The notes under the pieces are model-generated. The model had not been told where the DNA came from. It searched no databases and was given only the letters and a program-made list of their open reading frames with translations. A DNA stretch of 30,042 nt from a virus. The stretch is taken from IMG/VR virus record IMGVR_UViG_3300042891_001411, positions 1 to 30,042 of that record. One strand, written 5' to 3'. Below are positions 1 through 26,600 of the stretch, piece after piece (position 1 is the stretch's first letter; each line of letters begins with the position of its first letter). A program made the translations under genes and the position numbers.

Positions 1-2355
1 ATCTTTAATAGTACTTACAAGTCCAATTGTATATTTGATATTTTTAGTATCTCCAATGTTCATTCTCATCAAATTAGAAATACGAGAAACTACATCGCCC
101 GAGATTAATGGATTAGATTTAATCACAACAAATTGTTTCTTAACTTCTGGATTCAACGCCATCACTGATTCACCCTCAGCTTCAGTAACAGGTGTAGTAG
201 GTGTTGGTGACGGTGTTGCAATTGATTGACCGGTAATATCAATTCCTTGAAAAGCAGAATCAAGTTTCTTATTGATTTTAATACTTGGATTTATTTTGCC
301 AGTTGCAATATCAAGAATGTCTAAAATATTACTTATGACAGGACGCATTTTTGATTTTGTAGGAGCATTTAAATCCACTGCTTTTACACTTAAACTTAAA
401 TCATACACTTTACTTAAAAATGCTTTGACCATTCTCAAATCATTAGGAGTCAACGATGTTTTACTACCGACGACTGGAGTGGTTCCGCCTGGAGTGGTTC
501 CGCCTGGAGTGGTTCCGCCTGGAGTGGTTCCGCCTGGAGTGGTTCCACCGGGAGTGGTTCCACCGGGAGTGGTTCCGCCTGGAGTGGTTCCACCGGGAGT
601 GGTTCCACCGGGAGTGGTTCCACCGGGAGTGGTTCCGCCTGGAGTGGTTCCGCCTGGAGTGGTTCCGCCTGGAGTGGTTCCGCCTGGAGTGGTTCCACCG
701 GGAGTGGTTCCGCCTGGAGTGGTTCCACCGGGAGTGGTTCCACCCGGAGTTGTTGAACCACCATCTGGTGTTGCTGGAGTTGGTGGAGTTGCAGCTTCTT
801 TATCATCTACAACTACATCTTTAGGAAAGTCTAACTTATACTTTGGAAACTCCGCCATCAAACTTTCGAGTATATCAATAGCGGACTTTGCTTGTGGAAT
901 CTTTTTCAAATTATCTATCAACTGTGAAGTTGAAGAACCTTTTACTTTAAAGGTTTTTGCAATATCTTTGAGATAAGTTGAAATTTCTTTTCCAATATTA
1001 AACTTAAGATTTTCTATGGATTTTAGTTGATTTGCAGTTAACTCAGATGAAGCTGGTTTTGCGGGATCGCCACCTTGATCAGTGGGCGAAGGTAATGCGT
1101 TACTTTGCACTGTTTGTGCACGTTGCGGACCATCTGGAGTAACATTAATCTCACGTGAATTAGTTTTCGGACCCTGACTGCCTGCCTGGGATAATGGACC
1201 AGCACCAGAAGTAGCAGGTGTTTCATCTGCTTCAGATAAAATATTATTAACAATATCTGTTAATTTTAACGAATTGTTTTCAGATAAAGCAGCACCTGCA
1301 ACGCCTCCCACAGCAGAACCTGCAGTAGTACCGATACCGGCTTTAACACCACTTCCAACTGCTGATGATGCACTAGCACCTGTTAACAGTTCAAAACCAG
1401 AGTGCAAGAAAAATGCAATTGCACCTACCAACAGCGGAAATTGTGTGATGGTCAATGCACCCAAACCCAATGTAGCAGCACTAATTCCACCAACAAACGT
1501 CAACAATCCAATAATAATACCAGATTTGACTGGATTTTCACGTCCAAATTTTCCTAATGCATCAATGGTATTAATAATAGTTGAAGTTTCTTTACCAGAT
1601 GAATCAATTTTTGATAATCTATCACGAATGATTTTTTTCTTTACTTCAAACAAACGATCAAAGTCTTGTACTGGTTGTAAGTTTTGAAGTTTGGCCCATT
1701 GTGCGTCAAATAATTCATTCAACTTGCGCAACAATTTCTCAGCACCACCTACACCAGCAAAAGCGGTTCCAGTCAACATTGCTGGAGTGAACAGTGTTCC
1801 TGCAAATGCTACATCTGCTGCACCACTTGCAAGTTGTTTACCCTTCTGCCAAATTCCCCCTGCCCATCCACTCATTTTAACTGGAACAAGACCCACCTTA
1901 TCTGGTATAGTTTTATCCAAGGTTTTGAGTTGACCCAAATAATCACCAACACTTCTTATAAAGTTTTGATTTCTAGCTTTAAGGTAGGCTTCATTTCCTG
2001 CATCAGTTGTAGAACCTTTTACACCAAACTTATTTTGTACCCAATTACCTAATGTACCACCCAACTTACCACCTGTTGCTAATTTGTTAATACCAGCTCT
2101 AGCTTTTGCACCTAAACCTGCTGCTTTAGCTGCAAATTGATCACCAAACTTCTCTTGAAGAATCTTTTCACTAATTTCCACACATTCTAATGCAAGAATC
2201 AATTCTTTCTGTGCATTCAATCCGTTACGATAATGTTCAAAAAACTCTTGGGTTCTGTCGCCTAAAAGTGGTTCATATTCATTGAAAAACGCAACTTCTT
2301 CGTTGAGAAGTTGTTTAAAATAAAATGTTTCGATCAAAAGTCTGGAATCGGTCAT
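1..2355 (-). CDS. Large virion-type protein with hydrophobic segments and an 18-unit TTPGG repeat (partial, C-terminus off window)
   Basis: An ATG at 2355-2353 opens a frame of 785 codons that runs off the left edge without a stop. I do not recognise the family. The N-terminal third is mixed helical (begins MTDSRLLIETFYFKQLLNEE). Residues about 271-325 form a strongly hydrophobic Gly/Ala/Leu/Ile stretch that could be one or two membrane segments. A Gly/Ala/Ser-rich region follows at about 330-360. Near residue 375 is NNILSEADE, an (L/I)xE site of the type cut by T4 prohead protease. Residues about 538-627 are a Thr-Thr-Pro-Gly-Gly repeat, and a second Pro/Thr linker (SPTPTTP) lies further on. 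The start is 16 nt after the endonuclease stop. It lies downstream of the head operon, where T4 has scaffold and capsid genes, but nothing here resembles gp22 or gp23. A membrane-active or head-internal virion protein is possible and unproven. Confidence 0.8.
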   Translation of the reverse strand, partial: MTDSRLLIETFYFKQLLNEEVAFFNEYEPLLGDRTQEFFEHYRNGLNAQKELILALECVEISEKILQEKFGDQFAAKAAGLGAKARAGINKLATGGKLGGTLGNWVQNKFGVKGSTTDAGNEAYLKARNQNFIRSVGDYLGQLKTLDKTIPDKVGLVPVKMSGWAGGIWQKGKQLASGAADVAFAGTLFTPAMLTGTAFAGVGGAEKLLRKLNELFDAQWAKLQNLQPVQDFDRLFEVKKKIIRDRLSKIDSSGKETSTIINTIDALGKFGRENPVKSGIIIGLLTFVGGISAATLGLGALTITQFPLLVGAIAFFLHSGFELLTGASASSAVGSGVKAGIGTTAGSAVGGVAGAALSENNSLKLTDIVNNILSEADETPATSGAGPLSQAGSQGPKTNSREINVTPDGPQRAQTVQSNALPSPTDQGGDPAKPASSELTANQLKSIENLKFNIGKEISTYLKDIAKTFKVKGSSTSQLIDNLKKIPQAKSAIDILESLMAEFPKYKLDFPKDVVVDDKEAATPPTPATPDGGSTTPGGTTPGGTTPGGTTPGGTTPGGTTPGGTTPGGTTPGGTTPGGTTPGGTTPGGTTPGGTTPGGTTPGGTTPGGTTPGGTTPGGTTPGGTTPVVGSKTSLTPNDLRMVKAFLSKVYDLSLSVKAVDLNAPTKSKMRPVISNILDILDIATGKINPSIKINKKLDSAFQGIDITGQSIATPSPTPTTPVTEAEGESVMALNPEVKKQFVVIKSNPLISGDVVSRISNLMRMNIGDTKNIKYTIGLVSTIKD
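476..745 (-). repeat. 18-copy, 15-bp in-frame tandem repeat encoding TTPGG
   Basis: Eighteen consecutive 15-bp units lie in frame in the large partial gene and encode Thr-Pro-Gly-Gly-Thr without interruption. In the coding strand there are two main unit types, ACTCCAGGCGGAACC (A) and ACTCCCGGTGGAACC (B). They differ only at two adjacent synonymous third positions that always change together. Read along the + strand the order is AAAABBABBBAAAABABB', where the last unit is a CCG-GGT variant. Each unit is two-thirds G+C, far richer than the surrounding AT-rich gene. A degenerate copy continues past 745. The product is probably a flexible linker or stalk. Confidence 0.97.
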
Positions 2356-2371
2356 ATCAAATAAATAGGTA

Positions 2372-4042
2372 TTACTTTATAAATAATTCAAATTTTAAAG
2401 ACCCACAATCCCATATTCTATCCCATTTATTTGTTCTCATATTTTCCCATTCTGTTAGGTTTGGATCAAATATTTCAATCTTATTGGATAGTGTATGTTT
2501 TGCGTATCCATACCGATGATATCTTTTATATGAGTTTCCTTTTCCGAAATACCAATAATTAGGAACACCGTTAGATTTTTTAATAAAACCAATTGATGTA
2601 TACAAATTTCCCACCGACCACCGTCTATCGGCATAACTTACAATTTTTGAAGGATTATAATTTTTGATGAAGTATTTAATTAATTTACTTGCACCTCCGG
2701 TCACTGATGTATCAAGTTTGGAACAAAATCGATACAACTCGTATGTATCTATTATTGATTTATTTCCAAGAGCAGTTCTAAGTTTTCCAAATGTCATTAA
2801 TGAAACCAATTCATCATTATGATAAAGTCCTAACTTGATAGAACTATTATCTTTTCCTTGAAGATGATTACACGTCAAAAAGTTTGTTGAGGTTTTAACA
2901 TCAACTTCACGAATTTCACATTTTCTTGCAAAAATAGTATTGGTTGTAACTGAAAGTATTGAACGTATCCTACTTTTCACAATATCTTTTTTGAACCTCC
3001 ATTCATCTTCAAAAATATGAATTAACCTAATACCTTTTTTCTCACAAAGTTGAGTTTTGTTTAAATGGTAATTTTTAGATTTATTGCCATTAATTTCTCC
3101 ATGCCAATACAATCCATTACATTCGATTGCCAATTTCTTTTCTGACAAATAAAGATCTATTTCAAGTGGATTAATGATAGTTCTTACATTCTTTTCAACC
3201 GGGGTAATATTAAGACTTACAATAAAATCATAAACTTCTGTTTGAAATGTAGATGATAGTTTGTTACATGTCGGACATACAGGAACGTCACCATCTTCAA
3301 GACAATCTAAAAATTCAGTTGAACATGTCTTACATCTAAATTTAAATGATGTATAATATCCACATTCAATGTATTCTTCTTTAGTAAACAATACATCTAC
3401 CTTTGAACGTAACCTGTCGGTTGTTAACAGTGAATCATAAAATTTAGATCTTCTGGACTTTGTAGTTTTATTTTTTACCTCTTCGGATTGTTGTATGTTT
3501 TTTACCCCATATTTATCGAATACAGCGTTTTCTTTTTTAACTTGGTTCGATAAAATCCATTCAACTCCAAATTTACTTAAATTGGTACTTTTTATACGAT
3601 TTAAAACCTCGTCTGATTTGGTGGGATTATCAACGCCATAATTTTTAACACATGTTTTCTTTTTTTTATCAATGATATCTTTATTACTCAACCCATATTC
3701 ACAGCCGTATCTTTTTATGTTTGTAGATTTGATTTTAGAAACTGTTTGTTCATCCAACTGTGCACAACTCGGTGAACATGTTCTTAAATATCCTTTCGTA
3801 AAAGTAGTAAATGTAGTTACATTTTTACAATTCGGATTTTTACAAATAGGTTGAATCGTTATATCATTTACAATATGCCATATTCTTTGAGGAAATGTTG
3901 GATTGTTCAAATAAGAAGTCGATTGAAGAACATCATTATATACATTCAGTTGTCCAGTCTTTTCAAACCAAGTAACCAAACACTTTTTAGAAATCAACTT
4001 TCCGTTTGATAGTAGATTATTTTGTATCCAATTTTTCATCAT
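2372..4042 (-). CDS. Freestanding homing endonuclease, Vsr-like/PD-(D/E)XK type, with zinc-ribbon and KYGV repeats
   Basis: The protein is 556 aa from ATG 4042. The longer frame back to 4090 starts inside the terminator and would add an unlikely hydrophobic leader (MFFCICFIIII), so I reject it; ATG 4039 is equally possible. Order: a Cys4 cluster (C67, C72, C89, C93); three or four repeats of the form K-x-T-x3-KYGV-x-N-x3-S-x-E (about 100-195) as in phage homing endonucleases; a second zinc ribbon (C237-KT-C240, C256-PT-C259). The Vsr-like nuclease core is at about 290-350, with EIDLYL, AIECNGLYWH and IRLIHIFEDEW. The C-terminal domain (about 372-515) contains HLQGKD, LMTFGKLR, GGASKL and SYADRRWSVGNLY. 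This looks like the acyltransferase-like (Mom/GNAT-like) tail seen on other phage endonucleases, though that fold call is tentative. It would cut a cognate DNA site and promote its own spread. It lies between the head-operon terminator and the next gene. Confidence 0.88.
   Translation of the reverse strand: MMKNWIQNNLLSNGKLISKKCLVTWFEKTGQLNVYNDVLQSTSYLNNPTFPQRIWHIVNDITIQPICKNPNCKNVTTFTTFTKGYLRTCSPSCAQLDEQTVSKIKSTNIKRYGCEYGLSNKDIIDKKKKTCVKNYGVDNPTKSDEVLNRIKSTNLSKFGVEWILSNQVKKENAVFDKYGVKNIQQSEEVKNKTTKSRRSKFYDSLLTTDRLRSKVDVLFTKEEYIECGYYTSFKFRCKTCSTEFLDCLEDGDVPVCPTCNKLSSTFQTEVYDFIVSLNITPVEKNVRTIINPLEIDLYLSEKKLAIECNGLYWHGEINGNKSKNYHLNKTQLCEKKGIRLIHIFEDEWRFKKDIVKSRIRSILSVTTNTIFARKCEIREVDVKTSTNFLTCNHLQGKDNSSIKLGLYHNDELVSLMTFGKLRTALGNKSIIDTYELYRFCSKLDTSVTGGASKLIKYFIKNYNPSKIVSYADRRWSVGNLYTSIGFIKKSNGVPNYWYFGKGNSYKRYHRYGYAKHTLSNKIEIFDPNLTEWENMRTNKWDRIWDCGSLKFELFIK
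2378..2385 (-). promoter_or_regulatory. TAYTTATA motif upstream of the large partial gene
   Basis: The minus strand reads TATTTATA 22 nt before the ATG at 2355, inside the last codons of the endonuclease gene. The same motif recurs before several other genes in the window. A promoter role is inferred from the recurrence only. Confidence 0.25.
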
Positions 4043-4080
4043 ATTGCGTTTGTATTTGATGATAATTATGAAACAAATGC

Positions 4081-4109
4081 AAAAAAACACAACATAAAAA
4101 TGTTGTGTT
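4081..4109 (-). terminator. Intrinsic terminator of the head operon
   Basis: On the minus strand, just after the protease stop, AACACAACAT pairs perfectly with ATGTTGTGTT (10 bp) around a TTTT loop. A run of T follows, including the end of the second arm (seven A at 4081-4087 on the + strand). This is the only clear stem-plus-U-tract I find. It should end transcription of the terminase-portal-protease operon before the endonuclease gene. Confidence 0.85.
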
Positions 4110-4115
4110 GTAGTA

Positions 4116-4727
4116 TTATTTAACTTCCGAAATAATATCGTGAATCAACAATTCAATTTTAGAATATTTGTTAATCGTAGTATTTTGTACCGATTCATTT
4201 AGTGCACTAGACGGAAATAAAAATGCACCTCTAGTTGATGGATTACTAACAAAATCAAATGCAATTAATTCAAAGTCATCTTGAACTTCATCCGCATTTT
4301 CTCTTACATTTTTACGTACACTTCCAAGACCACGACTACTAATACCCAATTTAACTCCAGCTTTGAACAATGCTTTTAAAATGTTACCACTTGGTGTAGG
4401 AAGTATTTCAACTTTACCTACCAAGTCATCACCGTTCCACATCATTTCGACGACGTTATGGCTGACATGTTGAAGATTGACAACGCTGCTATCTGGGTGG
4501 TCTAATTCGCCCAATGCACGGCGTTCTTTTACAAAGTTATCATCGTACTTCTTGACTTCACGTTCCAAAATGTCTTTTGGATATACACGTCCGTTTTGAT
4601 TCTTTGCATTTGCACGTTGAAGAACTCCTTGAACAATCAATGGTTTAGAAGGATCATCTGTTCCTTCATTCAATTGACTACTAATTGGTTCAAAGAAAAT
4701 CCAACCTGTTTGTACTGTTTTATCCAT
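4116..4727 (-). CDS. 21: Prohead core protease, T4 gp21-like (peptidase family S77)
   Basis: The 203-aa protein has the hallmarks of the T4 gp21 serine protease: a His in GELDHPDS near residue 95 and a Ser in GISSRGLG near 131, followed by the acidic ELIAFDFVSNPS segment that is typical of the family. Known members mature the head by cutting scaffold, capsid and internal proteins at (L/I)xE sites and then destroy themselves. The protein contains possible self-cleavage sites, LNE-G near residue 20 and ISE-V close to the C-terminus (DIISEVK). The start lies 2 nt after the preceding stop, so translation is probably coupled. It is the last gene before the terminator. Length fits the family (T4 gp21 is about 212 aa). 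Confidence 0.93.
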   Translation of the reverse strand: MDKTVQTGWIFFEPISSQLNEGTDDPSKPLIVQGVLQRANAKNQNGRVYPKDILEREVKKYDDNFVKERRALGELDHPDSSVVNLQHVSHNVVEMMWNGDDLVGKVEILPTPSGNILKALFKAGVKLGISSRGLGSVRKNVRENADEVQDDFELIAFDFVSNPSTRGAFLFPSSALNESVQNTTINKYSKIELLIHDIISEVK

Positions 4728-4729
4728 AA

Positions 4730-5248
4730 TTAAGCTTGTTTTGGTTCTGATTTAGGTTGAGGAGTCACAGCTTGAACAACTGCTTGACCAGCAGCTGTGG
4801 TTGCTTTTGTTCCCGGTTCAGCAGTTTTAGGTTCTTTAGGTTCTTTGACTTTCAAAGCTTCACCCTGACCCAAAATTGTAATCTTGAATCCAGGCTTCAA
4901 AAAGTATTCCTTATCATCTTCGTCTCTTAAAATCACAACGTAACGATCATAAAAGTAATCAAGACTGGTACTAGTAACAGAGATCTCATAATCACGTACT
5001 GGTTGACCATATCCCTTAGATGCTTGTATTGATACTTTCTTATTCAATACCCGACTATTCAAATTACGTAAAAACGAAGCTTTAGATTCTGCAGTAGTTC
5101 TTGCAATTTTAGCTTCAAATTCACTGAATTCTGAACTAACGTTATAGTCTACAGATGTTGATGGTAGTGGTTGACCACCTGCGGTTGATGTACCGAAGTG
5201 TTGTGGTGCACCATCATCTTCAGTAATAAGTTTTACCAATGAAATCAT
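4730..5248 (-). CDS. Head-region protein with a capsid-targeting-like N-terminus
   Basis: A 172-aa protein I cannot assign to a named family. It begins MISLVKLITEDDG, a short amphipathic segment ending in ITE followed by D. This resembles the N-terminal capsid-targeting sequences of T4 internal proteins, which gp21 cleaves after (L/I)xE. The middle (about 40-130) is a mixed globular domain including VSIQASKGYGQPVRDYEI and YVVILRDEDDKEYFLKPG. The C-terminal 40 residues are low-complexity (Lys, Glu, Pro, Thr, Ala, Gln). It lies 1 nt from the upstream gene and 2 nt from the protease, in the interval between portal and protease where T4 encodes core proteins gp67 and gp68. A prohead-core or internal head protein is the best guess. 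Confidence 0.85.
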   Translation of the reverse strand: MISLVKLITEDDGAPQHFGTSTAGGQPLPSTSVDYNVSSEFSEFEAKIARTTAESKASFLRNLNSRVLNKKVSIQASKGYGQPVRDYEISVTSTSLDYFYDRYVVILRDEDDKEYFLKPGFKITILGQGEALKVKEPKEPKTAEPGTKATTAAGQAVVQAVTPQPKSEPKQA

Positions 5249-6850: not shown

Positions 6851-6858
6851 TATAAATA
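6851..6858 (-). promoter_or_regulatory. TAYTTATA motif before the 287-aa head gene
   Basis: The minus strand reads TATTTATA, 16 nt before ATG 6834, in the 56-nt gap after the portal gene. The motif recurs before other genes, so I infer a possible promoter or translation-leader element. Confidence 0.35.
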
Positions 6859-6890: not shown

Positions 6891-8759
6891 TTATTCTAAT
6901 ATATTAGACTCATCCATTATAGATTTTTGTTTATTTTCCGACAACAAAGTTTCTTTTTCTTGTTTAGATGTTTTTAAAAATGAGTCTAAGCTAACTAACT
7001 CTTTGGATATATTTTCTAAACTAAACACTGATCCTCCAGCGTACTTGTGTGTAGGTGATCGGTCAGACTTAAAGTCCCTATTCATTTCCAAACGACCGGT
7101 AACATCTTCACCAAATGGATAGTCCGATGACTTTTTTTGTCCTTTTTGTGACGGACGTTCATAATCCGGCTTTTGTTTTTCCTTTAATGTAGGAACTTCT
7201 CCGCCACCAGTTTCAGCACCTCCAGCTTCAGCACCTCCTCCGCCTCCGCCATCACCTTCAGGACTTATTTTTTGGAATGATTTAGCAGGATCGTTTCCTT
7301 CTTCTTCGATTTGTTTGAATCTATATGACTGTTTTGAATCATCAACAATTTCATTTTTAACAGTATTCATATCGTCCTCAGACATATGAAACACATTATC
7401 ATATACCCACTTCTTGCTAAATAATTTGTTTTCAATCATGTCTTTAGCAACACTTACTTTATTTGACCAAATATCAATCTTTTCCTTTTCAAACACCGTC
7501 GATGGATTGACTAATTCTAAACTAAAGTCTACCAAACTTGCATCTCTATATCCCTGAGCATACAAGTGAACAATACCAATCTTGGTCAATTCACTAATAA
7601 GAATACGTTGAATACGTTCAATTGTACGTGAAAAACGAACATCTTCTTGTGCCAAAGTGGCCTTACCGCTTAAATCTTCATCGTAACTCAAGAACGCTTT
7701 AGGAATCTTAAGGGCAGCCATCATCTTCTTACGGAGATATTCAATATCGTCTGTACCAGTAAATTCCATACCACTAAGAGATTCAATACTGGTACCACTA
7801 TCACCACCACGAACAGGAAGATAAAAATCTTCAACCATGTTTTGAAGGTTGAAACGAAGATTGTAATCGCCACTTTTTTCATCGATATATGGAACCTTTT
7901 TAGTCTTTGCAATTAACTTTTCCATGTATGAGTCGATTTCATTCGGAGGAATATTACCAACATCAATCTTGAAAATACGTTTTTCAGGAGCACGCATGAT
8001 ACGATGGATCAACATTGCGTCTTCCATCAAACTCAATTGTTTCCAAACACGACGAGCACCTTCCAACATACTCTTACCATATGGCAAGAAATTACTATCA
8101 CTCAACAAACGAAAGTGTGCTACTTGATAATTTTCAAGATCTTCTACCTTACCACCATCTGGTAAATTGACTTGAAACTTAATATAGTTCTTGTTATACA
8201 AGTCACTATTTTCAACACGGGTTACATTATAAGCACTAATTGGTTCAATCATGTAAACACCATATTCTGGACTAATGTATAATCGAAGGTAAAAGTCACC
8301 GTATTTACACATGTTACGAACATAACTCCAAAGATTAAATTCGATATTCATAATATCATAATACAGATTACGTAAAATCTGTTTGATATTATCATTTGGT
8401 GTATTAATTACTAACATGTCACCCATCTCATTACGAGTAAGTGATTCATCAGCATAAATGTCTAGAGCGGAACTTAGAATTGGATCCATGTCCATCGTAT
8501 CATAATCTCTAAAGAGTTCGATACGTGCTGCTTGATAACTGAGTGTAAAATCTCTGCTATATTGGTTGTATGCAGAAGTACGAATACGATTAAAACGGTC
8601 ACGTAATGTATTTCTATCAGTAGCGTATGCTACTTCATCTGTATCAACTACTTTTAACTTTTTACCACCAATATTACGTACAATAACATCTGTCGAGAAA
8701 AGTCTTCTGAGACGAGCAAATAATGATCTGCTCTTTAAATCGGTTGGTTGATCTGCCAT
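6891..8759 (-). CDS. 20: Portal protein, T4 gp20-like
   Basis: The 622-aa protein matches the T4 gp20 portal family, which forms the dodecameric DNA channel at the head vertex and seeds prohead assembly. Family-typical stretches include DPILSSALDIYADESLTRNE (about 93-112), HRIMRAPEKRIFKIDVGNIP, EDFYLPVRGGDSGTSIESL, and KKMMAALKIPKAFL, followed by the helix beginning EDVRFSRTIERIQR. The C-terminal 120 residues are low-complexity and variable, with a Gly run (GGGGGGAEAGG) and Lys/Glu/Pro stretches. Length is somewhat above T4 gp20 (524 aa), mainly because of this tail. It follows the terminase gene by 42 nt, as expected for a 17-20-21 gene cluster. The start is in the recurring CATATGGC context. 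Confidence 0.96.
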   Translation of the reverse strand: MADQPTDLKSRSLFARLRRLFSTDVIVRNIGGKKLKVVDTDEVAYATDRNTLRDRFNRIRTSAYNQYSRDFTLSYQAARIELFRDYDTMDMDPILSSALDIYADESLTRNEMGDMLVINTPNDNIKQILRNLYYDIMNIEFNLWSYVRNMCKYGDFYLRLYISPEYGVYMIEPISAYNVTRVENSDLYNKNYIKFQVNLPDGGKVEDLENYQVAHFRLLSDSNFLPYGKSMLEGARRVWKQLSLMEDAMLIHRIMRAPEKRIFKIDVGNIPPNEIDSYMEKLIAKTKKVPYIDEKSGDYNLRFNLQNMVEDFYLPVRGGDSGTSIESLSGMEFTGTDDIEYLRKKMMAALKIPKAFLSYDEDLSGKATLAQEDVRFSRTIERIQRILISELTKIGIVHLYAQGYRDASLVDFSLELVNPSTVFEKEKIDIWSNKVSVAKDMIENKLFSKKWVYDNVFHMSEDDMNTVKNEIVDDSKQSYRFKQIEEEGNDPAKSFQKISPEGDGGGGGGAEAGGAETGGGEVPTLKEKQKPDYERPSQKGQKKSSDYPFGEDVTGRLEMNRDFKSDRSPTHKYAGGSVFSLENISKELVSLDSFLKTSKQEKETLLSENKQKSIMDESNILE

Positions 8760-8801: not shown

Positions 8802-10400
8802 TTATAATAACCAAGTTAAACTTTCTTTTTGATCTTTTAATCCCGTTGGCATTTCCCACGACTGTTGTGCATTTGCATTTTTAGTTGTATAAACTGGAGC
8901 ACTTTGTTGTTCAGATCTATTGATATTACCCAACATATTACGTGTAAGGTCAACTGATTGTTGTCTTAACTTTAATGCAGTGTCACGTACCCATAAACCT
9001 ATAGCAAATGACATTACCAAGTCATCATTATAATTCCTCATTGATTCTGCTTTACCATTGTGCCATATAAACGTATATAGTTCATCAATAGTACGTACCG
9101 ATTGAATATTGATCGACTTTTCACGCATATAACTTTCCAAACGTGAAATAATCAACTGTCTAGTTACAGAAGTAGTTGTAAAACCCGGAGTCATTTTCTT
9201 CTCCGTTGCATGTATACGATTAGTCATTTGATGTTCAACATCAACATATTTTAGATCCGCACTGCTATAAAACAAATTGGGGTATTTTCTATCTAATACC
9301 TGTTGAATTGTACCCCAACCAATATTCAGATTTTCAATAACCAACAAAGCATTATTATACTCAGTTGCAATATTGACCAACATGTTTCCATAATCTTTAG
9401 TACCAACTTGACCTTTATACTCAGCAACCTGTGTGAAACTTTCAACGTCAATAACGTGGAATGCACTATAGTCAGCACCATCACCACGAGCAACGTCAGC
9501 GCATACCAAATACGAACGAGTATAATCTGGATACTCCCATAACCATAAAGACTTATCCATTCCTCTTGTTTCAATTGGATCACGTACTTTAGTTTGTTTG
9601 TAAAAGTCCAATATAGGAACATCAATGACAGTATTACCGGATGTTGCAAAATCACAATCGCATTCCTGCGCAGCCATTTTTGGTCCCAATAACTTAGTTT
9701 GTGCGTCCCGCCAAGACTGATCTCTTTCTGGATGAAGATGCCATGGTAACTTAATCGTATGAAACTTATTCTTTTTTGCTTCTGCATCTACCCATGTTCT
9801 ATGGAAGAAATTACCAACACCATTAGGAGTAGATAATACAATAGCTTTACCACCGGTAGATAGTGTCGATTGAGCAGATGTCCAAATTTCATCAATGTTA
9901 TCAATAAATGCAGCTTCATCAATAATCAACATTGATAGTGCAGAAGAACGACCAGCTGTTCCAGAAGAAGATACTGCTTTAATTTGAGAACCGTTTGTTA
10001 ATCTCAAACTTAACCTATTATCTTCTTGTTCTTTTACTTTCAACCAAGATGGAAGATTATCATTTGCAAACCTAACACGGGTGACAATTTCTTTCGACGT
10101 TTCTTGTGTAATACTGATACACAAAATGTTTTTGTCACTGTGAAATATCATCATCCACAAACTATACGCACTACTCAATGTAGTAATACCCAATTGACGA
10201 CTTTTTAAAATAATATTATAGTCGTTGTCGATAATTTGTTGAAGAGATTCGTCCTGAAACGGATACAATTCAAATGGTATTGTTCCACGTTTAGGATGTT
10301 GAATTTTGACGTACTTCTTCATAAAGTACATCGGATTTTCAAGACACTTTTTATACTCTGCCTTGATGATATCTCTTAATGTTTTTTGTTCACTCGACAT
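8802..10400 (-). CDS. 17: Terminase large subunit, T4 gp17-like packaging ATPase/nuclease
   Basis: The 532-aa protein is the DNA-packaging motor. The ATPase half has the adenine/Q region YPFQDES (46-52), the P-loop KSRQLGITT (66-74), Walker B MLIIDEAAF (157-165) and coupling motif LSTPNG (189-194). The P-loop has Ile at the position of the T4 GKT lysine; a Lys at the start of the loop (K66) may substitute, as in other deviant terminase P-loops. The RNase H-fold nuclease half has ADVARGDGADYSAF (D302), VIENLNIG (E356) and NDDLVMSFAIG (D459/D460), so the catalytic acids are intact. The first 11 bases overlap the end of the upstream zinc-ribbon gene, implying coupling. It is somewhat shorter than T4 gp17 (610 aa). 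Confidence 0.97.
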   Translation of the reverse strand: MSSEQKTLRDIIKAEYKKCLENPMYFMKKYVKIQHPKRGTIPFELYPFQDESLQQIIDNDYNIILKSRQLGITTLSSAYSLWMMIFHSDKNILCISITQETSKEIVTRVRFANDNLPSWLKVKEQEDNRLSLRLTNGSQIKAVSSSGTAGRSSALSMLIIDEAAFIDNIDEIWTSAQSTLSTGGKAIVLSTPNGVGNFFHRTWVDAEAKKNKFHTIKLPWHLHPERDQSWRDAQTKLLGPKMAAQECDCDFATSGNTVIDVPILDFYKQTKVRDPIETRGMDKSLWLWEYPDYTRSYLVCADVARGDGADYSAFHVIDVESFTQVAEYKGQVGTKDYGNMLVNIATEYNNALLVIENLNIGWGTIQQVLDRKYPNLFYSSADLKYVDVEHQMTNRIHATEKKMTPGFTTTSVTRQLIISRLESYMREKSINIQSVRTIDELYTFIWHNGKAESMRNYNDDLVMSFAIGLWVRDTALKLRQQSVDLTRNMLGNINRSEQQSAPVYTTKNANAQQSWEMPTGLKDQKESLTWLL

Positions 10401-10998
10401 GATTTAACTTCTCCAACTTCTTTTCAATCTTAAGAATCTGTTTATCGATTTTTTTTAAATCCGTCTTAAGATCCTTCAAAATATTTTCTCTACGTTCAAT
10501 TGTCCATTCATCTGAAGTTCCATCACCATTTGGAAATGAAATCTTTTGATGTGACGATACAAAGTTATAACTTTCTTGTACTTTGGTACGAAATTCTTTA
10601 GCTTGACTCAATTGATTACGCAACAGTTTATTTTGTTCGTATTCTTCATACTTTCCTTCAATACGTAACGTAGTTTCAAACTTTGCAAGACATTCTTGAC
10701 AACGACCCGTCTTATTATAAAGAATTTCATCATAACGATTGCCCCATCGAATATCCATGTTACAATCTTTACAGTGACGTTTAGTGGATTCTATGGTGGA
10801 TGAATTGACATTATTAATGGCACGTTTTGTACCATTCTTCTTTATCCATTTTTTACCATTTACATCTTCCCAAATTTCACCATCTTTACGAGACGCAAAA
10901 TCGGAGTCTGCGGTATAACCTACTTGAATAAAAGGACGTTCACCATTTAGATAGTCCCTAACAATTGCCAAATTGCTTTTTCCGGATGCTTTTTTCAT
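10390..10998 (-). CDS. Zinc-ribbon/coiled-coil protein overlapping terL (small-terminase position)
   Basis: A 202-aa protein with a Cys4 zinc-binding pattern, C76-KD-C79 and C100-QE-C103. It is preceded by a beta-rich segment (about 35-60: GEIWEDVNGKKWIKKNG) and followed by a Lys/Glu-rich helical C-terminus (about 120-200) likely to be coiled coil. I do not recognise a family. It overlaps the terminase start by 11 bp, the place where T4 encodes the small terminase gp16, and zinc-ribbon plus coiled-coil would suit DNA binding and oligomerisation. However, T4 gp16 has no zinc ribbon, so this is a positional guess. Without a Shine-Dalgarno sequence, the start is chosen by frame length and the 16-nt gap to the preceding stop. 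Confidence 0.85.
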   Translation of the reverse strand: MKKASGKSNLAIVRDYLNGERPFIQVGYTADSDFASRKDGEIWEDVNGKKWIKKNGTKRAINNVNSSTIESTKRHCKDCNMDIRWGNRYDEILYNKTGRCQECLAKFETTLRIEGKYEEYEQNKLLRNQLSQAKEFRTKVQESYNFVSSHQKISFPNGDGTSDEWTIERRENILKDLKTDLKKIDKQILKIEKKLEKLNHVE

Positions 10999-11014: not shown

Positions 11015-11770
11015 TTATACTTCGAACGTATCATTAAATACTGTGATGGCTTTGGAATATGATTTTTTTGTTTCATCCAATGGATTATCTGTATATTGCC
11101 AATTCCAAAATAGTTCTGATGGTGTCTGAAATCCATAAAACTCTAACATCTCTTTTTGTGTTTTAACTACGTCTTTACCATTCCAATTTTGACCCAAAGC
11201 AATAACTCCAGAATCAACGTTTTTGATAATGTTAGATTCACCAAGTGTAGAGTGTCGGTTTTCAATCCATGTTAATCTTTCAATCAACTTTTGATGTACA
11301 CTGTTGGTTTGACCCCAACGGATTGATGTAAAAAATACAACGGTGTCACTTTCAAATAATGGCTTTGTGATCTTCCACAGTTCATCCGATTTGTTATTGA
11401 TACTTGCCCAACAACGATGATATCCACTTGGATTTTTATCTTTGTCTTTTAACAATGCACCTTTTTCTCCACAATGATTTCCAAACTTGGAAGATACATT
11501 GCCTTCACAAACAGCAATGTTCAATTTGCTGGCATCAATAAATTCACATTTATCGGTTCCTAAACGTTCAGCAACCAACTTTGCAAGTTTGGTAGATTTA
11601 GCTTCATCGTCTTTATGACCTTCCCATCTGTTGGATGTAGCAATCAACAATACCTTTTTCTTGGTCTGAAGATATTTGATGGTGTTTTCAAGACGCAATG
11701 AGTTCTTCTCCATGTCCTGTTGACTAGAACTTGAAGCTGCCTCAACCAAAAAATCAGAGAGTTTTACCAT
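11015..11770 (-). CDS. Flavodoxin-fold NAD(P)H-dependent oxidoreductase with a capsid-targeting-like leader
   Basis: A 251-aa protein. Residues 39-72 (VLLIATSNRWEG, then KSTKLAKLVAERLG) and 143-165 (TVVFFTSIRWGQTNSVHQKL) follow the pattern of the flavodoxin-like NADPH-dependent FMN reductase family: a beta strand, phosphate-binding loop and helix, then a second flavin-contact loop. Such enzymes reduce flavin, quinones or other acceptors; the substrate here is unknown. Three cysteines (88, 100, 120) stand out. The N-terminus MVKLSDFLVEAASSSSQQD is not part of the fold. It resembles a T4 internal-protein capsid-targeting peptide ending in LVE before A, then a Ser/Gln spacer. It sits between a structural gene and the packaging genes. 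The start follows AGGATGAT and a TATTTATA motif. The oxidoreductase class is fairly sure; packaging is inferred. Confidence 0.85.
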   Translation of the reverse strand: MVKLSDFLVEAASSSSQQDMEKNSLRLENTIKYLQTKKKVLLIATSNRWEGHKDDEAKSTKLAKLVAERLGTDKCEFIDASKLNIAVCEGNVSSKFGNHCGEKGALLKDKDKNPSGYHRCWASINNKSDELWKITKPLFESDTVVFFTSIRWGQTNSVHQKLIERLTWIENRHSTLGESNIIKNVDSGVIALGQNWNGKDVVKTQKEMLEFYGFQTPSELFWNWQYTDNPLDETKKSYSKAITVFNDTFEV

Positions 11771-11777
11771 ATCATCC

Positions 11778-11785
11778 TATAAATA
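11778..11785 (-). promoter_or_regulatory. TAYTTATA motif before the oxidoreductase gene
   Basis: The minus strand reads TATTTATA, 7 nt before ATG 11770, in the 41-nt gap after the 11812-13752 gene. AGGATGAT lies between the motif and the start, one of the few spots with a weak Shine-Dalgarno-like string. Confidence 0.35.
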
Positions 11786-18521: not shown

Positions 18522-18803
18522 TTACTTCTTATATCTTGTAGTATCAGTTACACGATACAATCCTGATGTAGATAACGCTTTATCAGTAAAATTCTCACGA
18601 CGAGATGTGTTCATACCAGTCGTAAATCCCGGCTCAATTGTAAGTGTTCGTGAAAGCTGAGTATATCCAAATGGTGATTGAAGACCCAAAATAGCAGTAT
18701 TTGTATTTGCTTTTTTAGCATCAAATGCACCGCCTGCTTTATCACTCTTATATCTCTGCTCAAGATTTTTTGTGAGAGATGTTCTTTCGATTGAGGTTGC
18801 CAT
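18522..18803 (-). CDS. Small protein of the tail block, unknown function
   Basis: A 93-aa protein (MATSIERTSLTKNLEQRY...) with no recognisable domain. It contains a PFGYTQLSRTLTIEPGF segment and is polar, without membrane segment or signal. It is placed directly after the 781-aa tail protein and before the resolvase gene. The conserved-looking start context (ATTATGGC), a TATTTATA motif upstream and the tight packing support a real gene. A minor virion component is a guess from position. Confidence 0.7.
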   Translation of the reverse strand: MATSIERTSLTKNLEQRYKSDKAGGAFDAKKANTNTAILGLQSPFGYTQLSRTLTIEPGFTTGMNTSRRENFTDKALSTSGLYRVTDTTRYKK

Positions 18804-18821
18804 AATTTAATATATGTTTAC

Positions 18822-18829
18822 TATAAATA
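18822..18829 (-). promoter_or_regulatory. TAYTTATA motif before the 93-aa gene
   Basis: The minus strand reads TATTTATA, 18 nt before ATG 18803, in the 29-nt gap after the 781-aa gene. It is one of the recurring upstream motifs. Confidence 0.35.
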
Positions 18830-18832
18830 TGT

Positions 18833-21178
18833 TTATACATCCCATTTAATCAAAAAATTTAATGGGTATTCACCACTGTTTTTGATTGGAGATGATAACT
18901 TAGCTACGGCTACAAGATCTGATCCTGTATATAAACCAATAGTTGTAATGTATGGTGCTAAATATGAACCGGTGACATCCAAAGATGCACTATCTTGATA
19001 ATTTAAGAAATCTGGTTTAACCGTTGGAATTCCATTTGTATTCGTATATTTTGATGTTTTTGAAGTAATATATGCAACAACGTCAGAAAGAGTCTTACGT
19101 GTTGAAAATGGATTGATTAGTCGAGTATAATCATTAATACCCAACGATCCAATAAAGAACTTCCACAAGATCTTTGCATCCTGAATAGAAACTTTTCCAT
19201 CGCCATCAAAATCAAATTGTGACTCCAATCTGAATAATGTTGGTTTAAACGTAGCATATTGTTGTTTTAATGTATATTGACCATATTCATAATATGTTGT
19301 ATAGTATTCAAACAAACTACGTTCCGAATCAGATTCAATAACATATTCGTCCCAGAAAGTAGAATCTTGATCAAAATTTGGATTTCCCGGTGTATTGATA
19401 TCAACGATGTACAATAAAATCAAATTAATATCTCTAAAATCAACATCTCCGCTACCCAACAAGTTAAATGGTGGGTTAGTAACATTCAATGCAGTTGGAT
19501 TGGTACTAACATTAAATTCACCAGAGTCAACTACACAAATCACGGATTTTTCATTAATTGTATATTTGCTACTATAATCTATGGTGTATTTGTACTCGTA
19601 AGTATCGTTTGTAGACAACACATTTGTAAATTGCGATCCGGTATTTGAAAAAACAATTTCACCATTCTTGTAAAAAATATTTCCAGCATGATAATCTGTT
19701 CTCAATGAACTCAATGTAGAAATATATGCATGTCCTTTCATGTTTTGTAATACAGATTGTGGTACAAGTGGTGTCACCACAAACGAATTACTTGAAGTAA
19801 AGTCTGTCAAAATCAACGGCGATCCAATCACAATCCCGGTATCACTAATAGCTACATCATATCCATATGACATGTATGGATATCCAATTGATTTCTTTTT
19901 GTAATCATAAGTCACAGGTATAACAGATGATCCAGTCCTCTCTAACAAAATAAACTGTCCATTTAAGACATGCGTATCATCATATGATTGACTAATAGAA
20001 CTAGATATGTTGGCTTTAACCGCCAAGTCATTGCTTGATGATACACACCCTACAATAATATTGTTGTTAAATGTATCAACAGAAATTCCTAGTTTATTCT
20101 GTTTAATTGTGTTTACATCACCAATATACTTCTCAACCAAATCCCAATATACTTGTCCACTATCAGCATAAATTCCATTTGCTTCAGGTGTGTTTACTGG
20201 ACATTCTGTCTTTTTATAGATATATACAGCGCCTCTATCATACTGTGTTGTGGATCCACTGAATTCATAATAACTGGCATCATATGGAGCACCAATTACA
20301 ATTGTATCACCATTAATTTGAATATCCGAACCAAACCCATCATATGACTTTTTGACATAATTATAAGAATTAACATCGTCAAATGGAACTTTTTGAGAAC
20401 CGGTAATAGATGAAAACGTATGTGTTAATGACCAACCACCTGACGCACTTTCATACAAATATACTTTGGGGTTTTCTATAGAAACATCTTCAGAAACCAA
20501 AACTGAATTTGTTCCTGATTTATCAATTCGAACTATAGATCCAAAACTATTTCCTACTGTAGGAGAAGTAATATATGTGGTTGGTGATGCTGGAATTGAT
20601 ACACTATTAGATCCCGTAGTGTAACTATAAAAGTATACACGATCATATGCATTTGCACTTATTGCAATATAATTTTTATTAACCGCAACGGAATGTCCAA
20701 ATGTATTGTATGATGTGTTTATGGGAGATACTATCTTTGATACACTCAACAATGATGCCGACAAAGAATACGCAACCGATGATGACGGATTCAATAAATA
20801 TACATCTGTTAAACTATTATGTGAATATGACGTACCATCATACGATCCACTAAAATATTCATCACCGACCACAAAAATATTGTTATACAAATCAAATGAC
20901 AATCCATATCCATCTTTAATAACATTACCGCTCGTTCCACCACTACCACCACTACCACCTGTGCCTCCTGTACCAGACGTACCATACGCCTTCATAGACT
21001 GTGCAGTTCCATAATAAGTATAAATCCCTTGTGAAGCATTAAATCGATAAAGATCAATACTACCCGTACCCTCTTGAGATGCATATTGTGGATTTGGATT
21101 TCCTATAGCTGCAAATTTACCATGGGCTTCTACCTTATATCCAAATAGTGTTACAGGTCCAATCGTTCCATTATTCAT
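18833..21178 (-). CDS. Tail protein with FG-GAP-like beta-propeller and dockerin-like EF-hand pair
   Basis: A 781-aa protein. Residues about 10-460 contain repeats of the integrin FG-GAP/propeller type: FGYKVEAHGKFAAIGNP (12-28), YGLSFDLYNNIFVVGDEY, FGHSVAVNKNYIAISAN (160-176), FGSDIQINGDTIVIGAP (282-298), GISVDTFNNNIIVGC and YGYDVAISDTGIVIGSP. Each ends in a strand like GAVYIY. A Gly-rich linker (66-85) interrupts blade one. A beta module follows (about 525-562, ending EFNVSTNPT). A region with two dockerin-like calcium hands comes next: GDVDFRDINLILLYIV (577-592) and DFDGDGKVSIQDAKILWKFF (656-675, ligands D656, D658, D660, D667). The end, TTIGLYTGSDLVAVAKLS, is shared with the 418-aa neighbour. 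It is probably a surface-exposed tail or fibre protein; a partner for the dockerin-like part is unknown. Confidence 0.88.
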   Translation of the reverse strand: MNNGTIGPVTLFGYKVEAHGKFAAIGNPNPQYASQEGTGSIDLYRFNASQGIYTYYGTAQSMKAYGTSGTGGTGGSGGSGGTSGNVIKDGYGLSFDLYNNIFVVGDEYFSGSYDGTSYSHNSLTDVYLLNPSSSVAYSLSASLLSVSKIVSPINTSYNTFGHSVAVNKNYIAISANAYDRVYFYSYTTGSNSVSIPASPTTYITSPTVGNSFGSIVRIDKSGTNSVLVSEDVSIENPKVYLYESASGGWSLTHTFSSITGSQKVPFDDVNSYNYVKKSYDGFGSDIQINGDTIVIGAPYDASYYEFSGSTTQYDRGAVYIYKKTECPVNTPEANGIYADSGQVYWDLVEKYIGDVNTIKQNKLGISVDTFNNNIIVGCVSSSNDLAVKANISSSISQSYDDTHVLNGQFILLERTGSSVIPVTYDYKKKSIGYPYMSYGYDVAISDTGIVIGSPLILTDFTSSNSFVVTPLVPQSVLQNMKGHAYISTLSSLRTDYHAGNIFYKNGEIVFSNTGSQFTNVLSTNDTYEYKYTIDYSSKYTINEKSVICVVDSGEFNVSTNPTALNVTNPPFNLLGSGDVDFRDINLILLYIVDINTPGNPNFDQDSTFWDEYVIESDSERSLFEYYTTYYEYGQYTLKQQYATFKPTLFRLESQFDFDGDGKVSIQDAKILWKFFIGSLGINDYTRLINPFSTRKTLSDVVAYITSKTSKYTNTNGIPTVKPDFLNYQDSASLDVTGSYLAPYITTIGLYTGSDLVAVAKLSSPIKNSGEYPLNFLIKWDV

Positions 21179-23687: not shown

Positions 23688-26600
23688 TTATTGAACTGTC
23701 AAAACTCCGTTATTTCCTGTAGAGACAGATGTGTTGGTTATTACCGTACTTACTATTGGTAAACTTTTATCTGGATTTCCACAACTATCTACAGTATAGT
23801 TACTGGTTTGTTTTGATTTAACAAAATATCCATATTTAACACTATCATTAGCAATTACCTTAAATAAATCCCAACGAATCGGATTGTGTCTAGTTCCCAA
23901 AAAGTTTTGTGTCGATCCACGAAATGGATTTCCTATCGTATATGAATACAAATCATACGTTTTCTTTGGTGTAACAACTAGTTTATTTAAAATTTTAGTA
24001 TAAGACACGACAGAATTATTGGTTCCATATTCCGATACAGATGAACTAAATGGAATCATCCAAGTAAAATGTGGTACAGATTCAGATACATCATTACTTC
24101 TATAGGTAGCGTCAAATGATCCGCTAATAACATTAGTATCAAAATACATAATACCATAATCAGTACCAGTGTATAATTCACTATTTACCCACAATTCTTC
24201 ATAAGATGTCACATCGTTAATATAAGAATATCCTCCTTGAAAATTCTGAAAATTATTATTGAGGATTAACGAACCAGTCTGTGGGAATATTAAGATTGGT
24301 TTCTTATCCACAAACTGTTGATAAGAACTTGAATTTTCTGTTTGGATTTGATCATTTCTGTATACAGTAATATTTGCAGCCGAACACGAATTTATCAAAT
24401 GAGTCAATTCAAATGACTCTTCGTTAATAGAAACTTCAATTGGTTTAGATGGAAATTTAATTCTCTCCAAAATTGTTGGTTCAATTAAAATACCCGACAA
24501 CAAAATATTACGAGCAGCAATAACATTACGAATTGATTCAAAAATACTTGAATCAAAATACAATTTATAAATACTCGTAAATTCTTGATAAAGAATACGT
24601 CCACTGTATGTTGGTGATCCAGAAGAATAATACGCTGCACGCATGTCTTCAAGAAGTGAGTAACTTGACGAAAACTCTTGACGTGGGTCTCCCAACTCAC
24701 TCAATACATTTGTATCGCCAAAATATCTTAAAATCTCTTCGTTCTTACTAGATACCGGAGACATAAACACACCAATTAAAGGAGAATCAGTATCATTGTC
24801 AAACGATGTGCTCTTATCAAACGGAGTTAAAGCAGATAAATTTTGATGATTTTTAATTGAAATCTTATTGTTCCATAACAGATTTGGACCATAGCCAGAT
24901 AATCTATATGATTGATTAACATTATATTGAATAAAGTTATAAGGAAATGCAGATGATGATTCTCCTAAACATATATTTGCGTATGGATACAATGAACTGG
25001 TTGGGTAATTTCCAGAATACATTGATCGAATAACTAATGTGTCATCATATAAATCCGGATTATTTTCCAAAGAACTATATGTTGTATCCGAACTAACATC
25101 TTTACTTGGAATATTATATAGATAACATGTTAATGTTCCAGTGATTGATTCATATTGATACGTTTGAAGTGACGTACTTAACGATCTAGGATAATTGTAA
25201 GCTAAACGTAAATATAAATTGTTTCTAATATCGTTATAATTTGATTCATAATACGAATCGAAGTTATTTGCATGTTCCTTAAAGTTATTGTCAGTTATAG
25301 GAACCGTCCACAAATTCAATTTATCAATCGATCCGCTAAATTGTGTAGAACCCAATTTTAAAAACGGTAATGTTCCATCGGTAAATGATACGTTCTGATC
25401 ATATTCAAATATATCAGATGTAATTGAACGCAACCTATTATCACCTTCTTCATTGATTTCAACAAATAAATCATATTTCGTTGGTATTTCATTGACATCC
25501 AATGAACCAGTATACAACGATGATGGATCGTTTTTACGAACCATAACACTATAAACATTTCCATCAAATATTGGCAATAAGTCAGAAGAAAGTTCAGAGT
25601 CACCAATTTTAAATATAATTTTACCATTATTACTTAACGACTCTTTATAGGCATAAATTCTATAATCATACTGTGAGGATGAGTCTGGAAACTTTCTTAA
25701 TAAATCAATTTGACTTTGTTGAGCATAAGTCTTGCTGTAATTGTTACTAAATGCAAACTTAAATTCAACTGTTTGCACCGAACTTGTATACGGTGTTAAA
25801 ACATATGACTGAGTTGACATATTCAACAAATAAGAGTGTTTATCGAATGTGTACAATGATTGTGATACGTCTGAATATGCACCAAATTCACGAACGTTAA
25901 TAATATTTGTTGGCACTCCATAACACGCCAACAACAATTTAACGCCCTCAACTGTACCTTTAGCTTTCAATATCGCAGGTAAACTATTTAAAATTCTATT
26001 GTTAATGATATTTGTTTTATCAGAAACCGAAGCATAATTTGTTCCTGCAATATAGTTACTATCCAAGTTAACATCATTTACTGACGATTGCATTTTCCAT
26101 CCAAATGATGCCAACATACCATCCAAAATATTATTTGGAATGAAAGTATCCGTTCCCGTTACGTTATATGACAACATCGGGAATTTATCAATGTAAATAT
26201 AAATGTTATCAAAATGATGACCGATCATTGATAAGAAAATCAAAAAGTCATCGTTATGTGAATCTGATAACAAATAAGATGGTAAATTATTTATTAAACT
26301 GTCACGGTTATTTCTATCATATTCATCAGCCGCATCTTCATATGATTGTGGAAATCTATTTATATTGTTATATAAACTGTTAATCCACAAATAATATTCA
26401 TACCCGTCAAAAGACAATTTAATATCATTAATCTCCCGATTTAATGTTTCAATTTTTTGTACAGTGTACTGATCCGAATAAGGTGCAGCATTTAAAGATG
26501 ATATTGAAGCAAGTTTATTATTAATCGACGTTAACTTATTTTTATATATTATGATACGAGTTTTTGCAGATGAATACACTACAAAGTTTTCAAAGTTAGT

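Follow-up and report, generated by a model that had tools for sequence, protein, structure and literature searches.

A flavodoxin-fold enzyme was probably given a T4-type capsid-targeting sequence by a phage lineage, and would be packaged into the phage head, cut there and injected, as judged from sequence comparisons and from the analogy with phage T4. The kind of signal is known (the T4 capsid-targeting sequence), while the redox cargo appears to be new. The gene lies in a 30-kb virus record (the window, i.e. the whole stretch of 30,042 nucleotides that was analyzed) from a T4-like phage, which also encodes a terminase, a gp20-type portal, a gp21-type protease, a primase and an SbcC-like protein. 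The gene and the parts of its product are as follows:

11015-11770, minus strand: flavodoxin-fold oxidoreductase-like protein with an N-terminal leader, 251 aa (ORF, at least 212 viral relatives, Foldseek matches)
11741-11770, minus strand: predicted capsid-targeting leader, residues 1-10, MVKLSDFLVE (position-specific conservation, other families, T4 rule of PMC9026906), with the predicted cut between Glu10 and Ala11
11684-11740, minus strand: variable Ser/Gln-rich linker, residues 11-29 (alignment, pN/pS)
11018-11683, minus strand: flavodoxin-like domain, residues 30-251, with invariant Cys88, Cys100 and Cys120 (phage and cellular alignments, model, fold search)

The oxidoreductase ORF has an ATG start and encodes a protein with the N-terminus MVKLSDFLVEAASSSSQQDMEKN, in agreement with the first-pass annotation, which had read MVKLSDFLVEA with Glu10 before Ala11, followed by a Ser/Gln spacer, and had interpreted the segment as a capsid-targeting sequence, an interpretation to which the sequence comparisons described below lend support. 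The structure was modelled with AlphaFold2 at moderate confidence (mean pLDDT 68); the first core strand is predicted at residues 40-44, after a helix at residues 15-35, and the earlier statement that the domain begins near residue 39 is therefore fair. Alignable similarity to a cellular homologue extends from about residue 27 on.

At least 212 relatives of the oxidoreductase were found in IMG/VR, and 80 of these were kept for the analysis of leaders and loci. The leader is present on all of them (80/80; L057 is without a Met codon and L081 begins at a contig edge) and is retained in copies down to 68% identity. The 16 distinct copies all have Met1, Leu4, Asp6, Leu8 and Glu10, with either Leu or Phe at position 7; positions 3, 5 and 9 are variable, position 11 is Ala in 14 copies, Ser in one and Arg in one, and the linker (residues 11-29) is variable with the exception of Ser16. 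The leader consensus of the oxidoreductase is M(I/V)xLxD(L/F)LxE, with Ala after the predicted cut, and the overall layout is that of a propeptide, with conserved residues 1-10, a variable linker and a domain from about residue 30. The pN/pS ratio was 0.35 for the leader as compared with 0.45 for the linker and 0.22 for the domain, which indicates that certain positions of the leader bear most of its constraint. Different synonymous codons are used at the conserved residues (four for Leu4, three for Leu8 and three for Ala11), so selection acts on the peptide; the leader is more than a product of chance.

The internal proteins of T4 act early. Two of them, ipII and ipIII, both start with MKTYQEFIAEA, as had been stated correctly in the first-pass annotation, and gp24 starts with MAKINELLRES. 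The first 10 residues of IPIII suffice for head targeting, mutants indicate that targeting depends mainly on residues 4 and 7 and processing on residues 8 and 10, Asp at position 10 leaving targeting intact while abolishing processing, and gp21 cuts after L/I-x-E (PMC9026906). In the oxidoreductase leader all the positions of this rule are constrained (L4, L8 and E10 invariant, position 7 Leu or Phe), and the junction of the copies has the form L/I-x-E before a small residue. With such a leader attached, foreign enzymes, e.g., beta-galactosidase, are likewise taken into T4 heads and subsequently delivered to cells (PMC9026906). With regard to the natural cargo, IPI blocks a restriction enzyme (PMC3012670), phages that have lost IPIII can again infect a resistant strain when the host produces IPIII, even in a leaderless form (PMC9391042), and the packaged Alt is an ART (PMC5512222).

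What the present system shares with the gp21-processed T4 proteins IPI-IPIII and Alt is a leader of about ten residues with critical positions 4, 7, 8 and 10 and L/I-x-E before a small residue, the same kind of protease encoded nearby, the occurrence of one leader type on unrelated proteins, and some cargo of the ADP-ribosyltransferase type. It differs in the consensus, which here is M(I/V)xLxx(L/F/I)(L/I)xE with Leu4 in place of Tyr and, in the oxidoreductase, Asp6, as well as in the flavodoxin-fold oxidoreductase-like cargo, the wider cargo set and in that its packaging is predicted from sequence. The nearest T4 leader is that of gp24 (MAKINELLRE/S, i.e., M-x-x-(L/I)-x-x-L-L-x-E before Ser), although gp24 is a vertex protein of the shell whereas the oxidoreductase is a predicted cargo enzyme. 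Polyvalent proteins and other head-packaged effectors, such as P1 DdrB/DarA, MuF proteins and the N4 virion RNA polymerase, are alike in their predicted or known delivery with phage DNA and often have ART domains (PMC5512222), but most of them are large and multidomain or are loaded by different routes, while the smaller proteins considered here share a short cleavable tag. Since every sequence-level feature of T4 capsid targeting that could be tested was found, late expression aside, the oxidoreductase is predicted to be a member of this kind with a new cargo type.

The machinery expected to process such a leader is encoded in the same part of the window, where the following genes were identified:

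4116-4727, minus strand: gp21-type prohead protease, the enzyme expected to process such leaders (Pfam Peptidase_S77 E=2e-31, phrog_207 E=1e-56)
4730-5248, minus strand: 172-aa protein with a leader of the same kind, MISLVKLITE/D (predicted cut at the slash), directly before the protease gene; probably a prohead core protein
6891-8759, minus strand: gp20-type portal protein (Portal_T4 E 4e-69)
8802-10400, minus strand: terminase large subunit (Terminase_6N, phrog_2)
10390-10998, minus strand: 202-aa protein (p202) between the oxidoreductase and terminase genes (synteny)

The protease gene lies 6.3 kb downstream in the direction of the oxidoreductase gene, where a gp21-like protease had already been noted at about 6 kb, and proteases of this type were found in every long contig examined as well as in the nearest isolates of the window phage, Microcystis phage Mel-JY01 and Flavobacterium phage immuto (approximately 50% identity in portal and protease). 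In eight of these phages, the major capsid protein has an N-terminal part that terminates in QLLDE/A, QLIDE/V, QIVSE/A or QLISE/A (slash = predicted cut; mostly LLDE/A). These sites are located about 60 residues in, near the length of the T4 gp23 propeptide, which has 65 residues. The leader junctions FLVE/A and LLLE/A are of the same form, and we infer that the protease would cut at both the capsid-protein sites and the leader junctions. An L-x-E inside the oxidoreductase domain (L162-I163-E164) counts against the cleavage reading, as the protease would need to spare this site. Just after the protease gene, a homing-endonuclease-like gene is inserted (2372-4090, minus strand; phrog_3339 E 8e-129), and the product of a large ORF truncated by the left end of the window (1-2355, minus strand) combines a hydrophobic region with a long GGTTP repeat and contains, internally, LKLTDIVNNILSEA, which resembles an internal leader or protease site.

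Of the 80 oxidoreductase loci, 74 contain terminase and 65 contain portal, most of the related contigs being fragments in which the genes are simple ORF calls, and the gene order around p202 is kept in most related loci. In G001, a contig of 250 kb, the oxidoreductase gene (at 176 kb) is separated by more than 55 kb from the head cluster (88-119 kb) but retains its leader, and the slot between terminase and p202 is occupied by a leader-bearing PARP-domain gene. By tblastn, no recognisable copy of the oxidoreductase was found in any record of the phage collection, Mel-JY01 and immuto included.

The occurrence of the leader on other proteins was surveyed in seven long related contigs (approximately 830 kb) together with the window, comprising 1065 predicted genes, using the tight N-terminal pattern M[IVKR]x[LI]xx[LFI][LIVF]xE. 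This pattern was present at the N-terminus of 30 of the 1065 genes as opposed to 0.34 expected by residue shuffling (maximum of 300 shuffles: 2), an expectation that is clean only for the 16 non-oxidoreductase families since the pattern was written after leaders had been seen. Among 3420 internal Met positions, no match was obtained. A slightly looser pattern retrieved 31 genes that, once the leader was removed, formed 17 families without BLAST similarity to each other; eight of these genes are oxidoreductase copies, and the independent evidence therefore comes from the other 16 families. Domain matches among these 16 families included PARP (E 1e-6), ART-PolyVal (2.5e-8), the 2'-5' RNA ligase superfamily (1.5e-10) together with Acb1 (5e-7), and a GNAT acetyltransferase (4e-8) with a phage lysozyme (4e-11), and several of the proteins resemble known injected effectors.

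With the pattern fixed, 46 of the 448 distinct ORFs in the 80 loci matched (0.1 expected), mostly in families already found. The controls outside the T4 group, crAss001 and SPO1, gave no tight match, while the gp21-bearing isolates immuto and Mel-JY01 gave two each versus 0.1 expected. On a 65-kb part of T4 a looser form of the pattern found ipII, ipIII, gp24 and alt, plus two other genes. In contig G003, three leader genes are consecutive (77578-79910). One new leader family was seen in two of the 80 viral loci (224 aa, MIRLNNILKEW...), the next part of which, KKQFRKIAFKHHP, is DnaJ-type J-domain-like. The two leader proteins of the isolated Microcystis phage Mel-JY01 (L144; 60276-60926 and 62056-62718) are similar to each other and begin with MIKLKSLLQE (followed by Ile) and MIKLMSLVTE. 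A leader protein of immuto, at 24569-24994, begins with MIKLIDLLTE, followed by Ser.

Cellular homologues of the oxidoreductase were searched for with two approaches. A genome scan using two peptide patterns yielded a single cellular homologue, because cellular copies are mostly without these patterns, and a second search in 380 genomes of the same phylum (small genomes, probably Patescibacteria) recovered three more, resulting in a total of four full-length copies. Judged by their translations, the neighbouring genes look cellular (SecD/SecF-like, prolyl-tRNA-synthetase-like, EngB-like GTPase, and pirin-like), and one aligned homologue has 53-59% identity to the phage copies. The N-termini of the four are MLDNLKNMDK, MPPNPFSSAD, MENDIQFYRE and MAYDPVPHRA, so that the leader occurs on 0/4 full-length cellular copies, all from one phylum. 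Maximum-likelihood phylogeny united the phage copies in one group (support 100/99), with the cellular copies outside. The alignment of homologues proposed in the first-pass annotation as a check thus came out in its favour, with the leader on phage copies and absent from cellular ones. Most simply, the leader was apparently gained once, in the phage lineage, and then kept across the phage clade, which would make the oxidoreductase an example of a gene with cellular relatives acquiring a tag. A search of plasmids for further homologues returned nothing close.

The identity of the enzyme was approached through its fold and its cellular relatives. The oxidoreductase had no direct match in Pfam, NCBIfam or PHROGs, and nothing useful was found by sequence in the PDB; a weak DpdC match from PADLOC (E 0.01, residues 18-50) was disregarded. 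The best Foldseek matches of the model were nearly all flavodoxin-like oxidoreductases (E 3e-6 to 5e-4, TM 0.4-0.5), among them SP1951 with FMN, azoreductase, RosB, NQO1/NQO2, WrbA and SsuE, and WrbA-like phage proteins (TM 0.4-0.5) were all that a search of a viral structure library yielded. The cellular homologues match Flavodoxin_2 (8e-5) and FMN_red (6e-5), both below the curated cut-offs (for FMN_red, PF03358, homologues L132 and L133 scored 19-23 bits with a cut-off of 24), and a profile of the oxidoreductase family finds clear FMN_red proteins (E 6e-13). As the family cut-off was not reached, the oxidoreductase was filed as FMN_red-related and not as FMN_red.

The model points to a flavodoxin-like fold and, together with the remote homology, most likely to a flavin- or quinone-reducing enzyme. 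The flavin reductase of the first-pass annotation thus holds as far as the flavodoxin-like fold and the remote FMN_red relatives are concerned, but it has no direct family match, and this assignment is weaker than that of a capsid-targeted protein. The predicted fold and the remote links via the cellular homologues are shared with flavin/quinone reductases (FMN_red, Flavodoxin_2, WrbA, NQO, SsuE, RosB), whereas the absence of a family-level match, a three-cysteine region (residues 85-125; Cys88, Cys100 and Cys120 are invariant across the aligned phage and cellular copies) and the leader with its linker set the oxidoreductase apart. A TSNR...KST segment is present, which we take to be the site where such reductases bind the flavin phosphate.

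In the mechanism proposed here, the oxidoreductase would be made along with the head proteins and docked by its leader into the prohead scaffold core, where the gp21-type protease would cleave between Glu10 and Ala11. The leader peptide would then leave, while the 241-residue mature enzyme would stay in the head. Once ejected with the DNA, the enzyme would be active in the new host immediately, probably reducing flavins or quinones with NAD(P)H. The co-tagged ADP-ribosyltransferase-like, Acb1-like and GNAT-lysozyme proteins would be in keeping with a function in countering early host defence or redox stress. In a wider and more tentative reading, which we regard as a serious possibility, an interchangeable short tag loads a whole payload of enzymes (the redox enzyme, ADP-ribosyltransferase-like proteins, an Acb1-like phosphoesterase, an acetyltransferase-lysozyme, and others). 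In this reading the oxidoreductase, once delivered, would act as a redox effector, changing the flavin, quinone or NAD(P)H state of the host or blocking a first-response defence before phage genes are expressed.

Several observations would also suit a protein that carries a true prohead-core targeting and cleavage signal and serves inside the prohead or head (in assembly or in the redox state of head proteins) instead of being delivered: in most loci the gene has head and packaging genes as neighbours, the second leader-bearing protein of the window (4730-5248), encoded between core-like and protease genes, resembles a core protein, and the T4 shell protein gp24 has a similar cleaved leader. 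We consider such a role unlikely, given that the oxidoreductase domain is enzyme-like with cellular relatives, that many other leader proteins resemble host-directed enzymes, that the gene of G001 is distant from the head cluster, and that the Mel-JY01 and immuto genomes manage without the oxidoreductase. Somewhat less probable still is an N-terminal helix that acts as a docking or oligomerisation element of an ordinary auxiliary metabolic enzyme working late in the infected cell; it would be in line with the modelling of the leader as a short helix (at low confidence) and with packaging being read from sequence, but would leave the same leader on 16 unrelated families, its L-x-E/A ending and its absence from cellular copies unexplained. 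A chance or annotation artefact (a start at Met20, or upstream bases kept for DNA reasons, e.g., a promoter) is very improbable and largely refuted, for although Met20 is found in 12 of the 16 copies and a promoter-like motif stands just upstream of the gene, translation from Met20 was rejected because the other 4/16 copies are without it, codons change where residues stay, and shuffles give almost no matches.

If its packaging and injection are confirmed, the oxidoreductase would represent a new type of effector injected by phages, a redox enzyme carried in the head; in the open-access literature searched, we found no paper joining capsid targeting with an oxidoreductase, or flavodoxin with the internal proteins of phage heads. 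The leader makes the question of which proteins an uncultured phage injects one of sequence search, and in the eight contigs 17 families, for many of which the function is unknown, are singled out in this way as candidate anti-defence or host-takeover proteins.

The promoter-like motif upstream of the oxidoreductase gene is located as follows:

11778-11785, minus strand: TATTTATA, promoter-like motif (over-represented, in the sense orientation, upstream of genes in these phages)

This motif precedes 90 of 744 genes of these phages, as compared with 6.6 in shuffles and 6 in antisense, and probably represents a phage promoter class. It is also present at window positions 6851-6858 and 18822-18829 (minus strand), shortly ahead of start codons, and in relatives. 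The idea of a special promoter for leader genes found no support, as the motif accompanies 11/31 leader genes versus 183/906 others (p=0.07, not significant).

Additional groups of tagged genes were observed in the long contigs. Five leader genes are packed into 4.4 kb of G001 (72646-77045, in L086), coding for an Acb1/2H-phosphoesterase-like protein, a GNAT-phage lysozyme fusion, a short protein whose start, LYRG, is ART-like and two unknowns, and this cassette is a candidate injected-effector island. Beside the oxidoreductase, a 344-aa leader protein is encoded in L063 (2784-3815) and 43 further loci, and also in G003 (77578-78612). It has the ligase-like motifs KIDGVN and EGIVVRD, and RNA ligases rank first in structural comparison, although with a poor model (pLDDT 49) and without significance (E 0.026); a head-packaged RNA ligase, if it is one, would be notable. 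A second recurrent N-terminus, MKxxELxxLIKExIxEVL, is found on about ten mostly short proteins (e.g., G001 18706-19209, 66265-66591 and 196268-196582; G002 46676-47116; G006 69050-69610) and is possibly another targeting leader.
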